The notes under the pieces: generated by a model
What the model saw: the letters and a program-made list of their open reading frames with translations, nothing else
The model's database searches: none
What the model was told of the DNA's origin: nothing
Position numbers and translations under genes: made by a program
Origin: Rhodospirillales bacterium
GTDB taxonomy: Bacteria; Pseudomonadota; Alphaproteobacteria; CACIAM-22H2
Assembly (NCBI GenBank): GCA_016794025.1
Contig: JAEUKX010000083.1
Coordinates: 1-36,043 of the forward strand
Direction of reading: 5' to 3'
DNA length: 36,043 bases
In this document: piece after piece, positions 954 through 7,885 of the stretch
How the letters are laid out: each line of letters begins with the position of its first letter
How positions within the stretch are numbered: the stretch's first letter is position 1

Positions 954-3053
954 ATGTTCCCGTACCGTCCGGCCATGCCCGATTCAAGCGCCGTTTTGCC
1001 CGACTGGCGGGCTTCCGCCTGCCCGCACGACTGCCCCTCGACCTGTTCGCTGGAGGTGGAGCGCCTCGACGCGCACCGCATCGGCAAGGTGCGCGGCGCG
1101 CGCGACAACGACTACACGGCCGGCGTCATCTGCGCGAAGGTCGCGCGCTATGCCGAACGGCAGCACCATCCCGCCCGCCTGTCGCGCCCGCTGCGGCGCG
1201 TGGGCCCGAAGGGCTGCGGGGCCGACGGTTTCGTTCCGATCGGCTGGGACGAGGCGCTCGACGAGGTGGCCCACCGGCTGAAGGCGGCGGCCGCGCGCCA
1301 CGGCCCACAGACAGTGTGGCCCTATTTCTACGCCGGCACGATGGGCCTCGTGCAGCGCGACGGCATCGAGCGGCTGCGCCACGCGATGGGCTATTCGCGC
1401 CAGTATTCGACCTTCTGCGTGACGCTTGCCGACGCGGGCTGGGCGGCGGGCGCGGGCGCCAAGCGTGGGGCCGACGCGCGCACGATCGCGGACAGCGATC
1501 TGGTCGTCGTGTGGGGCGGCAACCCCGTCTCCACCCAGGTCAACGTGATGACCCATGTCGCGCGCGCGCGAAAGACGCGCGGGGCGAAGTTCGTGGTCGT
1601 CGACCCCTACCGCACGCCGACGGCCGAGCAGGCCGACCTGCACCTGATGCTGCGGCCCGGCACGGACGCCGCATTGGCCGTCGCCGTCATGCATGTGCTG
1701 TTCGCCGAGGGCTATGCCGACCGCGACTACATCGCGAAATACACCGCCGGTGCGGACGAGCTGGAAGCGCATGTCGCGGCCCGGACGCCCGAATGGGCCG
1801 AAGCGATATGCGGCGTGCCGGCCGCGACGATCCGCGAATTCGCCCGGCTGTTCGGCCGCACGAAGCGCACGTTCGTGCGGCTCGGTTACGGTTTCTCGCG
1901 CCACCGCAATGGCGCGTCCTCCATGCATGCGGCGGCCTCGCTCGCCGCGATCACGGGGGCCTGGCAGCACAAGGGCGGCGGGGCGCTCTACGGCCAGTCG
2001 GCCATCTACCGGCTCGACAAGACGATGATCGAGGGTCTCGACCGGGTCGACCCGAAGATCCGGCGCCTCGACCAGAGCCGCATCGGCGCGGTGCTGACCG
2101 GCGATCCGCAGGACCTGGCCGGCGGCCCGCCGGTCACGGCGATGTTCATCCAGAACACCAATCCCATGAACGTGGCGCCCAATCTCGGCCGCGTGCGGGA
2201 AGGCTTCGCGCGCGAGGACCTGTTCGTGTGCGTGCACGAGCAGTTCCTGACCGATACGGCGCGCATGGCCGACATCGTCCTGCCCGCCACGACATTCCTC
2301 GAGCATGCGGACATGTACTATGCCAGCGGCAGCACCTACCTGCAGGTGACGAAGAAGGTCGTCGAGCCCTACGCCGAATGCCGCTCGAACCACACGGTCC
2401 ACCGGGAACTCGCAAGGCGGCTCGGCGCATCGCACCCCGGCTTCGACATGAGCGAGTGGGAACTGATCGACTGGACGCTCAAGGCCTCGGGCTACCCGTC
2501 GGCCGACGAGGTGCATGCCGGGCGCTGGTACGACAAGGCGGCTTCCTTCGAGACGACGAACTTCCTCGACGGCTTCGCGCATGCCGACCGGCGCTGGCAC
2601 TTCAAGGCCGACTGGGAACGGATCGGGCCGGGCTGGAAGGCGATGCCGGCCCTGCCCGACCAGATGACGAACTACGACGCCGCGACAAAGGACAGGCCCT
2701 TCCGGCTTGTCGCCGCGCCGGCGCGCAGCTACCTCAACTCCACCTTTACCGAGACGCCGGGCTCGCAGGCGCGCGAGGGGCGCCCGGCCGCGATGATCCA
2801 TCCTGCCGACCTTGCGGAAATCGGCGCCGAGGACGGATCGCGCGTGCGGCTTGGCAACGAGCGCGGCTCGCTCGTGCTTGCGGCCAAGGCGTTCAACGGT
2901 GTGCTGCGCGGCACCGTCGTGGTCGAGAGCATCTGGCCCAACGACGCATTCGAGGAAGGGCTCGGCATCAACGTGCTGACATCCGACGATCCGGGCTTCC
3001 CCGCCGGCGGCGGGGTCTTCCACGACACGTCGGTGTGGGTGCGCAAGGCGTAG
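954..3053 (+). CDS. Molybdopterin-dependent oxidoreductase (DMSO reductase superfamily)
   Basis: A protein of about 699 aa with the layout of bis-MGD molybdenum enzymes. It has an N-terminal 4Fe-4S site (Cys in CPHDCPSTC plus the Cys of GVICAKVARYAER), then the molybdopterin domains (VVVWGGNPVSTQVN, QNTNPMNVAPN, DIVLPATTFLEHADMYY), and a C-terminal dinucleotide-binding beta-barrel from about residue 580 (PARSYLNSTFTETPG). Such proteins are often annotated as formate-dehydrogenase-like, but the substrate is unknown. The region aligning by eye with the molybdenum ligand reads TFCVTLADAGW, so the ligand position may lack Cys or SeCys. There is no Tat signal, so it is probably cytoplasmic. The ATG at 954 has a GGAGG at 934-938, spaced rather far; the ATG at 975 (MPDSSAV) is an alternative start. 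No accessory subunit gene is adjacent. Confidence 0.88.
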   Translation: MFPYRPAMPDSSAVLPDWRASACPHDCPSTCSLEVERLDAHRIGKVRGARDNDYTAGVICAKVARYAERQHHPARLSRPLRRVGPKGCGADGFVPIGWDEALDEVAHRLKAAAARHGPQTVWPYFYAGTMGLVQRDGIERLRHAMGYSRQYSTFCVTLADAGWAAGAGAKRGADARTIADSDLVVVWGGNPVSTQVNVMTHVARARKTRGAKFVVVDPYRTPTAEQADLHLMLRPGTDAALAVAVMHVLFAEGYADRDYIAKYTAGADELEAHVAARTPEWAEAICGVPAATIREFARLFGRTKRTFVRLGYGFSRHRNGASSMHAAASLAAITGAWQHKGGGALYGQSAIYRLDKTMIEGLDRVDPKIRRLDQSRIGAVLTGDPQDLAGGPPVTAMFIQNTNPMNVAPNLGRVREGFAREDLFVCVHEQFLTDTARMADIVLPATTFLEHADMYYASGSTYLQVTKKVVEPYAECRSNHTVHRELARRLGASHPGFDMSEWELIDWTLKASGYPSADEVHAGRWYDKAASFETTNFLDGFAHADRRWHFKADWERIGPGWKAMPALPDQMTNYDAATKDRPFRLVAAPARSYLNSTFTETPGSQAREGRPAAMIHPADLAEIGAEDGSRVRLGNERGSLVLAAKAFNGVLRGTVVVESIWPNDAFEEGLGINVLTSDDPGFPAGGGVFHDTSVWVRKA

Positions 3054-3127
3054 GCAGCACGCAGGGCAGCGGCCCGGTCCGCCGCGATCGCCGCGGCATG
3101 CGCATTGGCCGGCCTGCCCCCACGCGA

Positions 3128-3143
3128 TGGCACGGAAACTGCT
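3128..3143 (+). promoter_or_regulatory. Candidate sigma-54 (RpoN) -24/-12 promoter
   Basis: The sequence reads TGGCACG-N4-CTGCT. The GG and GC elements fall at the exact 12-nt phase of the RpoN consensus TGGCACG-N4-TTGCA, with a mismatch at the first T of TTGC. It lies in the gap after the oxidoreductase stop (3053), pointing away from that gene, and predicts a start near 3154. No enhancer-binding-protein site was identified. It is a motif match only. Confidence 0.5.
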
Positions 3144-3153
3144 TATTGGAAAC

Positions 3154-3256
3154 CATGTCGCAGGCACTGGCCCTGTCTTTTGACGGGCTTCAGAGCAGGT
3201 GGACAGGTTTCTCCCCAACTTCGGGCCGCTGCCGAAAGGCGCGGCCCGTTCTTTTT
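3154..3256 (+). ncRNA. Candidate sigma-54-dependent small RNA, about 100 nt
   Basis: The interval runs from the predicted RpoN start to the end of the U-tract of a strong intrinsic terminator, and no convincing reading frame fits between them. Local pairing is visible: CCTGTC (3172-3177) can pair perfectly with GACAGG (3202-3207), or with a one-base bulge to GACGGG (3182-3187), so two alternative folds compete. A pyrimidine-rich stretch TTTCTCCCC (3208-3216), complementary to Shine-Dalgarno-like sequence, sits just before the terminator stem. This resembles the exposed seeds of trans-acting small RNAs. An alternative is that the terminator simply ends read-through from the upstream oxidoreductase, whose stop is 170 nt before it. 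I do not recognise a named RNA family. Confidence 0.42.
3222..3256 (+). terminator. Intrinsic terminator with GAAA tetraloop
   Basis: An 8-bp perfect stem CGGGCCGC/GCGGCCCG (3222-3229 with 3241-3248) encloses an inner GCC-GAAA-GGC hairpin (3231-3240). It is followed directly by TTCTTTTT (3249-3256). The U-tract exists only on the + strand, so it ends rightward transcription just before the 3' end of the convergent GT41 gene. Confidence 0.88.
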
Positions 3257-3263
3257 GCGGCTC

Positions 3264-5396
3264 TCAGCGGCGCGCGCCGGATCGTCCGCACCAGTCCCGC
3301 CACAGGCCCCGGAAGGCCGCCTCCAGATCGCGCGTGAACTTTCCGCCATCGCAGAGGGCCGAGGCGGCCATGCGCGGCCGGAGGGTCTTGCGCAAATCGG
3401 CAATCCTCGCCGGATCCGCGGCAAGTCCGGCGGCGATGCGGACATAGTCCGCGCCATCGCGCGCGACCCAGTCGTTCAGCCCGAGCGACGCGAGAAAGCC
3501 TTGCGTCTGGCGCGAGGGCGCCGTTGCCCCCGGCAGCGTCACCACCGGCACGCCCATCCACAAGGCCTCGCATGTCGTCAGGCCGCCCGAGAAGGGGAAC
3601 GGGTCCAGCGCGATGGCCATGTCGCCATACTCGGCCAGCATCGCCGCGTGCGGCGACGGGCCGCGAAGCACGAGGCGTTCGGCCGCGATGCCGGCCTGCG
3701 CGAACATCCGGCTCACGCGCTGGCGCTGACCCGGATCGCCCAGCGACCGCCATTTGAGCAGCAGGCGCGAATTCGGCACCGCCGCCAGCACCGCCGCCCA
3801 TAATTTCACCACTTCAGGGCCGACTTTCGACAGATTGTTGAACGAGCCGAACGTCACCGGACCGTCGCGCCATGCCGGCTCGGGCGCGTAGTCGGGCGGG
3901 GCATAGCAGAAGCGCGAACCGGGCAGCCGCACGACCCGCTCGACATAGTGATCCTCCTCGTCCGGCCGGATGGTCACGCCGTCGGACAGGATGAAGTCCA
4001 TCGCCGATAGCCCGGTCGTGCCCCAGAACCCCATCCACGTCACCTGGATCGGCGCCGGCCGCAGCGCGAACATCGTCAGCCGGTTGTGCCCGGTATGGCC
4101 GGAAAGATCGATCAGCAGGTCGATCCCGTCGGACCGCACGAGATCGGCCGCGTCCCTGTCGCCGAGGCCCGCAAGACTGCGCCAGTGATCGGCCCCGGCG
4201 CGTAGCCTCGCAGTCAGATCGTCGCCGCGCGGAAACGTGCTGTAGCAGAAGACGTCGACATCCGTCCGGTTGTGATGGGCCAGAACCGGCGCCAGGAAGT
4301 AGCCCACCGGATGACGCCCGAAGTCGCCCGAGACGTAGCCCACGCGAAGCCGCCGCGCCGCGTCCGGCACATTGGCGAATCCGGCTGCGGGAAGCCGGCG
4401 ATCGAACTGCGCGCCGAATTCGCGCGCCCTGTCGAGCACCGCACCCGATGCGGTCTGCTCCATGTAATGCAGGCTCATCAGGCGATTGCTGTGCGCCTCG
4501 GCATAGTCCGGCCGGATGCGCAGCGCCGTGTCGTAGGCCGCGAGCGCCGCGTCGAAGCGGCCGAGGTCCTGGAGGACATTGCCGCGGTTGGAATGCGCCT
4601 CGGCGTGGTGCGGCTCGATGCGCAGGGCCGCGTCGTAAGACGCAAGCGCCGCATCGAGGCGCCCCAGATCCTGAAGGACCACGCCGCGATTGCACAGCGC
4701 CTTCACATAGTCCGGCCTGATCTTCAGCGCGGCGTCGTGGGCGGCAAGCGCCTCCTCGAGGCGGCCGAGATCCTGAAGGGTGTTGCCGCGGTTGGAATGC
4801 GCTTCGGCGAAATCCGGCCTGATCTTCAGCGCGGCGTCGAGCGAGGCCAGCGCGTCGTCGAGACGGCCCAGTTCCTGTAGGGCGGCGCCTCGGTTGGAGA
4901 GCGCGTCGGCATAGTCCGGTCGGATCCGCAGCGCCGCGTCGTAGGAAGCCAGCGCCGCGTCGAGCCGGCCAAGGTCCTGAAGGACGGCACCGCGGTTGGA
5001 GAGCGCCTCGGCGTAATCCGGCTTCAGCCGCAGGGCTGCGTCAAAGGACGCCAATGCGTCGTCGAGGCGGCCCAGAGCCTTCAGGACGTTGCCGCGATTG
5101 GAATGGTAGGCAGCCACGTTCCCGTCGATGCCGATCGCCCTGCCGATGAGATCGGCGCCAACATCTGCCCGCCCCGCCTGATAGGCGGCCACGCCAAGAA
5201 GGTGCAGGGCGTCGGCATGGTTCGCATCGGTCGCCAGGATGCGGCGGTAGAGCGATTCGGCCTCGGCCAGCCGGCCGGCGACGTGAAGCTGGCGGGCTTC
5301 GTTGAAGAGGGTCTGCAACGAAGCGGCGTCCGCCGGCGGGGCCTCTGACGTGTCGCGTGCCACCTTGTCCTGCGCCCTGTGCTGCTTGCGGTTCAC
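3264..5396 (-). CDS. TPR-repeat protein with GT41 (O-GlcNAc transferase / SPINDLY-like) domain
   Basis: A 710-aa protein. Residues 27-298 form eight 34-aa TPR units; the last six are near copies of each other (NRGxxLQDLGRLDAALAS type). The C-terminal half (about 350-700) is a GT41 domain: RVGYVSGDFGRHPVGYF with the putative base His362, IDLSGHTGHNR, FGSFNNLSK with the nucleotide-binding Lys524, and LDPFPFSGGLTTCEALWMGVPVV. These match the residues used by O-GlcNAc transferase to hold UDP-sugar, so it should be an active protein or peptide O-glycosyltransferase, probably cytoplasmic. The acceptor is unknown. It stands alone, convergent with the candidate small RNA and divergent from the dioxygenase operon. 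The near-identical repeats suggest recent TPR expansion. Confidence 0.93.
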   Translation of the reverse strand: MNRKQHRAQDKVARDTSEAPPADAASLQTLFNEARQLHVAGRLAEAESLYRRILATDANHADALHLLGVAAYQAGRADVGADLIGRAIGIDGNVAAYHSNRGNVLKALGRLDDALASFDAALRLKPDYAEALSNRGAVLQDLGRLDAALASYDAALRIRPDYADALSNRGAALQELGRLDDALASLDAALKIRPDFAEAHSNRGNTLQDLGRLEEALAAHDAALKIRPDYVKALCNRGVVLQDLGRLDAALASYDAALRIEPHHAEAHSNRGNVLQDLGRFDAALAAYDTALRIRPDYAEAHSNRLMSLHYMEQTASGAVLDRAREFGAQFDRRLPAAGFANVPDAARRLRVGYVSGDFGRHPVGYFLAPVLAHHNRTDVDVFCYSTFPRGDDLTARLRAGADHWRSLAGLGDRDAADLVRSDGIDLLIDLSGHTGHNRLTMFALRPAPIQVTWMGFWGTTGLSAMDFILSDGVTIRPDEEDHYVERVVRLPGSRFCYAPPDYAPEPAWRDGPVTFGSFNNLSKVGPEVVKLWAAVLAAVPNSRLLLKWRSLGDPGQRQRVSRMFAQAGIAAERLVLRGPSPHAAMLAEYGDMAIALDPFPFSGGLTTCEALWMGVPVVTLPGATAPSRQTQGFLASLGLNDWVARDGADYVRIAAGLAADPARIADLRKTLRPRMAASALCDGGKFTRDLEAAFRGLWRDWCGRSGARR
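4503..5114 (-). repeat. Six tandem 102-bp TPR-coding repeats
   Basis: Residues 95-298 of the GT41 gene are encoded by six consecutive 102-bp units that remain similar at the DNA level, with recurrent blocks such as TCCTGAAGG, CGGTTGGA and GCGGCGTCG. The reading frame is kept throughout. Such an array can gain or lose whole units by recombination, changing the length of the TPR superhelix without a frameshift. Confidence 0.85.
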
Positions 5397-7398: not shown

Positions 7399-7459
7399 TT
7401 TCGCCCGCCCCCTTTTTTTGGCATCCTCGCCGCCCCCGATCCGAAAGCCGGAGCACGAC

Positions 7460-7885
7460 ATGGCCGACACCGTTCCCCACCTGAAACTCACCTATGAAGG
7501 TGCGCGCAAGATGCTGGCCGCCTCCGTCGCCAAGGCAGAGGCGATGGGCGTGCCGCAATGCATCGCCATCGTCGATGACGGCGCCAATCTCCTCGCCTTC
7601 GCGCGCATGGACGGCGCCAAGTTCCTGTCGATCGATTCCGCCTGGCGCAAGGCGATGTCGGCGGCCTCCAGCCGCGCGGCCACCGGCGGCATGGCCGAGG
7701 GGCTCGACATCCGGCTCGCGATCGCCACGCAGGGCAAGCTCGTCAACGTCAAGGGCGGCGTGCCGATCGTCGTCGACGGCAAGACGATCGGCGCCATCGG
7801 CGTGGGTTCGGGCACGGGCGACCAGGATCTCGAGGTCGCCAAGGCCGGACTTGCCGCGCTCGCGGGCGCGAAGACCGATTTCTGA
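7460..7885 (+). CDS. GlcG/HbpS family protein (haem-degrading/haem-binding, DUF336)
   Basis: 141 aa, a single GlcG/HbpS domain (family length about 135-150). Diagnostic segments are the N-terminal helix LTYEGARKMLAASVAKAEAMG, the strand CIAIVDDGANLLAFARMDGA, and the glycine-rich GGVPIVVDGKTIGAIGVGSGTGDQDLEVAKAG. There is no signal peptide. HbpS-like proteins bind haem or iron, and members are often found inside catabolic operons with an unknown accessory role. It follows the hydratase by 61 nt on the same strand, and is probably the third gene of the dioxygenase operon. It might protect or supply the dioxygenase iron, but that is inference. Confidence 0.88.
   Translation: MADTVPHLKLTYEGARKMLAASVAKAEAMGVPQCIAIVDDGANLLAFARMDGAKFLSIDSAWRKAMSAASSRAATGGMAEGLDIRLAIATQGKLVNVKGGVPIVVDGKTIGAIGVGSGTGDQDLEVAKAGLAALAGAKTDF

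Follow-up and report, generated by a model that had tools for sequence, protein, structure and literature searches.

The DNA analysed here, a stretch of 36,043 nucleotides from a Rhodospirillales bacterium (the window), carries at positions 3128-3256 what, judged from the sequences compared, is a real and conserved small RNA gene that is probably sigma-54-dependent. The element combines a conserved -24/-12 promoter, a UUUCUCCCC segment and an intrinsic terminator, and the reading we favour, at a probability of roughly three in four, is that it would specify a small RNA made with RpoN, likely a divergent paralogue of the alpha-r8 RNAs, with an anti-Shine-Dalgarno mode of action.

Location and architecture of the element

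The element lies in the intergenic interval 3054-3263, between two convergent genes (Table 1). A re-reading of the sequence confirmed the coordinates that a first-pass annotation had assigned to the promoter, the seed, the terminator and the stems. The GG and GC of the promoter are separated by ten bases, which places the predicted transcription start (+1) at 3154. The core of the seed, TTTCTCCCC, is found at 3208-3216, and the terminator reads CGGGCCGC-T-GCC-GAAA-GGC-GCGGCCCG over 3222-3248, from where its tail runs up to 3256.

Table 1. Features of the small RNA locus and of the genes named in the text, in window coordinates
Feature	Position	Strand	Basis or remark
sigma-54 -24/-12 promoter, TGGCACG-GAAA-CTGCT	3128-3143	+	sequence; GG 3129-3130, GC 3141-3142
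predicted small RNA, ~103 nt	3154-3256	+	start from promoter spacing, end from terminator
5' hairpin, helix UGUCGC (3156-3161) with GUGGACA (3199-3205), inner stem variable	3156-3205	+	folds, pair counts
exposed anti-Shine-Dalgarno-type seed, TTTCTCCCCAACTT	3208-3221	+	exact presence in 10/11 genus genomes
intrinsic terminator, 8-bp stem with GCC-GAAA-GGC, tail TTCTTTTT	3222-3256	+	sequence
molybdopterin oxidoreductase gene, upstream	966-3053 (start approximate)	+	Pfam PF00384, PF01568, PF04879
TPR / glycosyltransferase family 41 gene, downstream, convergent	3264-5396	-	element stands alone in window genome
HbpS/GlcG-like gene, the window's own copy	7424-7885		Pfam PF03928

The strict promoter pattern TGGCAY-N6-TGCW has a single occurrence in the window, where the loose GG/GC form occurs nine times, and the combination of promoter, spacing and seed was found once over the whole window and in none of 100 shuffles. 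When genome contigs were scanned with the combined promoter and seed pattern, 13 stretches were retrieved, eight of them bearing the element; the matches L087, L088 and L090 look like chance. A separate pair of closely matching loci, L079 (2980-3069, minus strand) and L085 (6326-6409, minus strand), from a Nitrospirota MAG and a Nitrospinota MAG, carries sigma-54-like TGGCACARGGATTGCTTTAT and paired GGGGTTTTCTCGG arms and represents an unrelated element that is not alpha-r8-like. An Rfam scan of the whole window at gathering cut-offs gave no match, and ARAGORN reported a tRNA-??? with a two-base anticodon at 4523-4607 (plus strand), within the TPR gene, which is most likely a false call.

Conservation within the genus

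The host genus is likely Tagaea (Rhodospirillales), and 10 of its 11 genomes have preserved the seed GGRCAGGTTTCTCCCCAAC along with the promoter boxes, the 5' end and the terminator, while the spacer, the inner hairpin and the flanks have diverged among these ten. G010 has two copies, both at contig ends, which were scored as two loci of one genome, and each of the other genomes with the seed has one; in G007, a genome that is 74% complete, no copy of this alpha-r8 variant was found. The sigma-54 promoter proposed in the first-pass annotation was borne out, as its coordinates are right and the strict motif is present in all ten genomes with the seed (11/11 loci when both G010 contigs are counted). 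The end of the motif precedes the seed by 45-71 bases in all ten, and 2-8 of 2000 shuffles per locus contain the strict motif anywhere in the 110-base stretch before the seed.

Mean pairwise identity is 0.27 upstream of the promoter and then rises and falls in blocks, with values of 0.92 for the -24 box, 0.47 for the spacer, 0.82 for the -12 box and 0.49 from there to the start, followed within the RNA by 0.79 for the 5' end, 0.40 for the inner hairpin, 0.99 for the seed block and 0.62 for the terminator with its tail. Such an alternation of conserved and diverged blocks is characteristic of a promoter and an RNA that are each constrained in their own right. In all ten genomes the predicted start, 12 bases from the -12 C, falls at most 3 bases from the conserved 5' motif, which is TGTCGC in seven and TGTACGC or TGTTACGC in G001, G006 and G009. 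A model of the seed and terminator (62 positions) scored 72.4-84.5 bits in the 11 loci of the 10/11 genus genomes, at most 37.1 bits among the matches listed for the rest of the order (23 genomes) and, genus loci aside, at most 39.2 bits in a class sample of 385 genomes that includes two of the genus and was searched with stricter filters. At the level of sequence comparison, it is this conservation that is the decisive evidence that the promoter-seed-terminator element is real.

The same comparison bears on two simpler accounts of the locus. In the first, which we consider very unlikely, the promoter-like motif would be a product of chance or decay and 3222-3256 would simply terminate transcription of the molybdopterin oxidoreductase gene; terminator-like sites are indeed as frequent as in shuffles, the terminator alone being no rarer than chance (1 in 2.6 kb versus 1.4 expected), and the element directly follows the oxidoreductase gene in the window and in G008. 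However, the ten genomes keep the promoter, correctly spaced, even though other genes can lie directly upstream, for instance a TetR gene in G001, and the 99% conservation of the seed block would be needless for a terminator. In the second, whose probability is practically negligible, a small protein would be translated from the ATG at 3155, which coincides with the predicted +2; this ATG is missing in G002, G003 and G004 (GTTGTCGC), its frame would pass through both seed and terminator, and the start of the seed varies from +36 to +62, in no constant frame with the ATG.

Folding of the predicted RNA

In seven variant sequences, terminator included, fold z-scores of -2.2 to -4.1 were obtained, and 0-5 of 200 shuffles folded as well as each of them. 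The intrinsic terminator that had been claimed at 3222-3256 is present there with its stem pairs kept in 10 sequences: seven pairs were counted, all of them retained in 100% of cells, and two of the seven have changed on both sides. The 5' closing helix, formed by UGUCGC and approximately G[CU]GG[AG]CA before the seed, is paired in 94.8% of cells (10 sequences), with pair 57-104 failing in 3/10 and pair 56-106 gapped in two; because most of its pairs never vary, this helix rests on conservation more than on covariation. The helix is absent from the minimum-energy folds of G006, G009 and G010, and RNAalifold returned the terminator together with a weak local hairpin extending into the seed and nothing else, the closing helix having been tested by hand. 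An exposed anti-Shine-Dalgarno seed had also been predicted, and this agrees with a mean unpaired probability of 0.84 in the window for a block that is 99% conserved; across the ten sequences the value ranges from 0.47 to 0.85, being 0.80-0.85 in seven and lower, 0.47-0.62, in G001, G006 and G009.

The two mutually exclusive stems described by the first-pass annotation exist in the window, where CCTGTC at 3172-3177 is able to pair with GACAGG at 3202-3207 or with GACGGG at 3182-3187, but the CCTGTC arm is not kept in the nine aligned relatives. As CCTGTC is not conserved and the stems are specific to the window sequence, a switch between two alternative stems was rejected. Conservation in relatives had been set beforehand as a test of the element, and it was passed by the promoter and the seed, in 10 of 11 genomes, and failed by the alternative stems.

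Probable relationship to the alpha-r8 small RNAs

The RNA had initially been reported as one that was not recognised, whereas its most likely affiliation is with the alpha-r8 small RNAs, as a divergent paralogue; these include MmgR of Sinorhizobium meliloti and SisA-SisD of Caulobacter. It resembles these RNAs in possessing a hairpin, an anti-Shine-Dalgarno stretch and a strong terminator, and the alpha-r8 layout of a hairpin, a single-stranded anti-Shine-Dalgarno segment and a Rho-independent terminator is seen in the predicted folds, with a less exposed seed in 3/10. An alignment of six variant and six classic alpha-r8 sequences has the invariant columns GG.C.G.TT.CTCCC..A..T..GGCCG, and a CUCCC core is common to both. 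The two differ in that the alpha-r8 core 10-mer UUUCCUCCCU is absent from the element, which has UUUCUCCCCA, and UUUCUCCCCAACUU is present instead in 10 of the 11 genus genomes; the element furthermore has a clean -24/-12 promoter and no PhaR-type box near its seed. Unlike alpha-r8, matches to the variant model of 72-85 bits were confined to this genus among the genomes searched.

With the Rfam model RF00519 (suhB, mmgR) the window element scored 20.4 bits, below the gathering score of 41, and in a scan of seven variant loci five scored 25.7-33.3 while no hit at E<=1 was listed for those of the window and G008; the classic alpha-r8 copy in the window's own genome scored 55.8 bits. Since the element falls short of the RF00519 cut-off but aligns with classic alpha-r8 sequences, one of which its own genome carries, it is named a likely divergent paralogue that would act in the manner of the family, and not a member by cut-off, and descent of the element and alpha-r8 from a common ancestor is likely. 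This suggests that a conserved branch of the family escapes the Rfam mmgR model when the curated cut-off is applied. Loci in the second tier of the variant model carried the classic alpha-r8 10-mer (TTTCCTCCCT) at the matched place in 14/20 and 16/26 of those inspected. BjrC68 (RF02353) matched weakly over the same stretch, at 16.5 bits against a cut-off of 39, which probably reflects a shared terminator and pyrimidine stretch only.

Passages of PMC12559287 describe alpha-r8 siblings as present in several copies in some genomes, with differing promoters, and SisA as repressing mRNAs through its 10-mer; for the four Caulobacter siblings, they report that no common promoter motif was found. In the open-licence literature to which our search was limited, no description of a sigma-54-driven alpha-r8 sibling or of a Tagaea small RNA was found. 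Two further alpha-r8-like model matches within the genus, L077 (G009:C18) and L078 (G006:C11), contain a similar terminator preceded by repeated pyrimidine runs of the CTCCTCCT type and may perhaps constitute a third sibling class.

Genomic neighbourhood

A different role for the promoter and terminator is conceivable, in that sigma-54 would drive a 5' leader whose terminator attenuates an HbpS/GlcG-like or PAS_5 gene, any function in trans being secondary or nil. In eight of ten genomes a same-strand gene lies approximately 43-61 bases past the T-run, a distance that could hardly accommodate a separate promoter, and, as a parallel to such mixed layouts, passages of PMC9731577 place GlnZ, which they call an RpoN-dependent sRNA, between glnA and glnLG at a moderate terminator. 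We nevertheless regard such a leader as rather unlikely, as the downstream gene differs among the genomes, being HbpS/GlcG-like in G001, G006, G008, G009 and G010 (judged from similarity to the window copy) and a PAS_5-domain gene in G002-G004 (by Pfam in G004), and as the seed is the most conserved part of an RNA with a classic paralogue in a recognised small RNA family. In the window and in G005, moreover, promoter, seed and terminator have remained intact next to a downstream gene that is convergent, and it is this persistence of the element beside a convergent neighbour that favours a free-standing RNA. Upstream, a frame sharing the C-terminal sequence of the molybdopterin oxidoreductase, GGAVFHDTAIW, is present in all nine relatives.

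Candidate inputs

All 11 genus genomes encode RpoN, and 10 encode Hfq. The window's genome has seven PF00158 matches, of which three are weak (22-27 bits) and four strong, namely NtrC (714 bits), NtrX (705 bits), FlbD (750.6 bits, cut-off 750) and a LuxO-like protein (517.6 bits, cut-off 800). In the 300-350 bases upstream of the element in ten genomes, no strict NtrC, LuxO, NifA or FlbD motif was found, the LuxO-Qrr type site TTGCA-N3-TGCAA occurred in 0/10 within 300 bases, and an upstream search for an exact 4+4 dyad common to the six lineages retrieved none; a looser pattern, TGC-N9-11-GCA, gave one match in the window and two in G005. Enhancer sites can be distal or of other types.

Qrr, CrcZ and GlmY are RpoN-dependent small RNAs of other classes, and their citation as gammaproteobacterial parallels in the first-pass annotation holds as analogy only, because the host is an alphaproteobacterium. 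To our knowledge, neither these three nor GlnZ and NrsZ have any sequence relation to the element, and they differ from it in that their activators are known, the upstream search having found none for the element. GlnZ and NrsZ, in the passages available from PMC9731577, share with it a sigma-54 promoter driving a small regulatory RNA.

The predicted promoter would depend on an activator, for which NtrC is our leading guess, by analogy, because parts of PMC7143759 report that NtrC induces MmgR in Sinorhizobium; the same source tabulates MmgR with predicted RpoD and RpoN motifs. AniA (PhaR) is described in sections of PMC12542648 as a repressor of MmgR.

Predicted action and candidate targets

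According to the mechanism that we propose, RpoN would transcribe 3154-3256 into the predicted RNA of about 103 nt, Hfq would bind the tail of its terminator, and GUUUCUCCCC would pair with mRNAs that carry (G)GGGAGAAAC at the ribosome-binding site, thereby blocking their translation. The seed is complementary to ribosome-binding sites of the GGGGAGAAAC type. Its 11-base complement was found before an ATG in 0/11 genomes, and the 8-base complement precedes start codons at 122 sites in the 11 genomes as compared to 20 for the reversed pattern, an excess that is not proof of targeting because the 8-base complement is itself a strong Shine-Dalgarno sequence. Sixty of the 122 sites were fetched, chiefly sites with GGGGAGAAA, to which 10 of the window genome's 11 were added, and at least 12 of these 60 stand before genes for solute-binding proteins (7 by Pfam, 5 by BLAST clustering), a count to which no background rate is attached.

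The prediction of targets from the seed, as the first-pass annotation had advised, yielded as its best candidate the solute-binding protein of a TRAP transporter, while the 8-base counts correspond to ordinary strong Shine-Dalgarno sequences. The gene for this protein, which Pfam assigns to DctP in the window's genome, has orthologues in six of the 11 genomes, and GGGAGAAAC precedes the start in all six, four of them with GGGGAGAAAC. It is ranked as a candidate only, as such sites are also ordinary strong Shine-Dalgarno sequences and the six genomes include G007, in which the RNA was not detected.

Apparent exchange of a PhaR box for a sigma-54 promoter

The pattern YGCRNYGCR corresponds to the core of the PhaR motif as given in parts of PMC12542648. 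It was found within 110 bases upstream of the seed in 26 of 31 classic alpha-r8 copies, compared with a mean of 3.2 and a maximum of 7 in shuffles that ignore the relatedness of the copies. From this set of 31, copies with fewer than 100 upstream bases, duplicates in the last 60 bases and model hits without the classic core had been left out; the 31 that remained include 16 from the family to which the window belongs, which do not count as independent cases. By origin, the box is present in 16/16 copies from this family and in 10/15 from outside it, which suggests, on the strength of these motif matches, that PhaR control of the alpha-r8 family extends well beyond Sinorhizobium. A strict sigma-54 site was found in one of the 31 classic copies, and the variant loci present the reverse distribution, with the PhaR core within 110 bases upstream of the seed in 0/11 and the sigma-54 site in 11/11; in G005 and G010 a single match to the PhaR core lies farther out, about 150 bases before the promoter.

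Genome G117, from another alphaproteobacterial family, harbours at L105 (1467-1569) a classic alpha-r8 whose promoter is of the sigma-54 type and which lacks a PhaR box. It is the only alpha-r8 detected there (RF00519, 44.5 bits), and its predicted transcript would extend for about 69 nt from the base of the hairpin to the end of the T-run. This may represent a second, independent promoter exchange, a case that is only suggestive because 0.03-0.12 sigma-54 sites would be expected by chance among 31 copies at the shuffle rates.

Our tentative scenario, to which we would give somewhat less than even odds, is that an alpha-r8 gene was duplicated and its promoter exchanged, the old copy remaining with PhaR and the new one acquiring sigma-54 and a re-tuned seed, so that the siblings would feed signals of carbon storage and of nitrogen (or those of another activator) into the translation of uptake systems, with an independent repeat in G117. 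Already on the main reading favoured at the outset, one sibling would be under the carbon-storage sensor PhaR and the element under a sigma-54 signal such as nitrogen limitation. Why cells maintain sibling small RNAs is in many cases an open question, and with a conserved and differing sigma-54 input and a changed seed in the element such a division of labour is directly testable. As a minor observation, the classic alpha-r8 copy of the window's own genome, on G000:C112, has two PhaR-type boxes, TGCGCCGCA and TGCACTGCG, upstream (L002, 1501-1551; L075).
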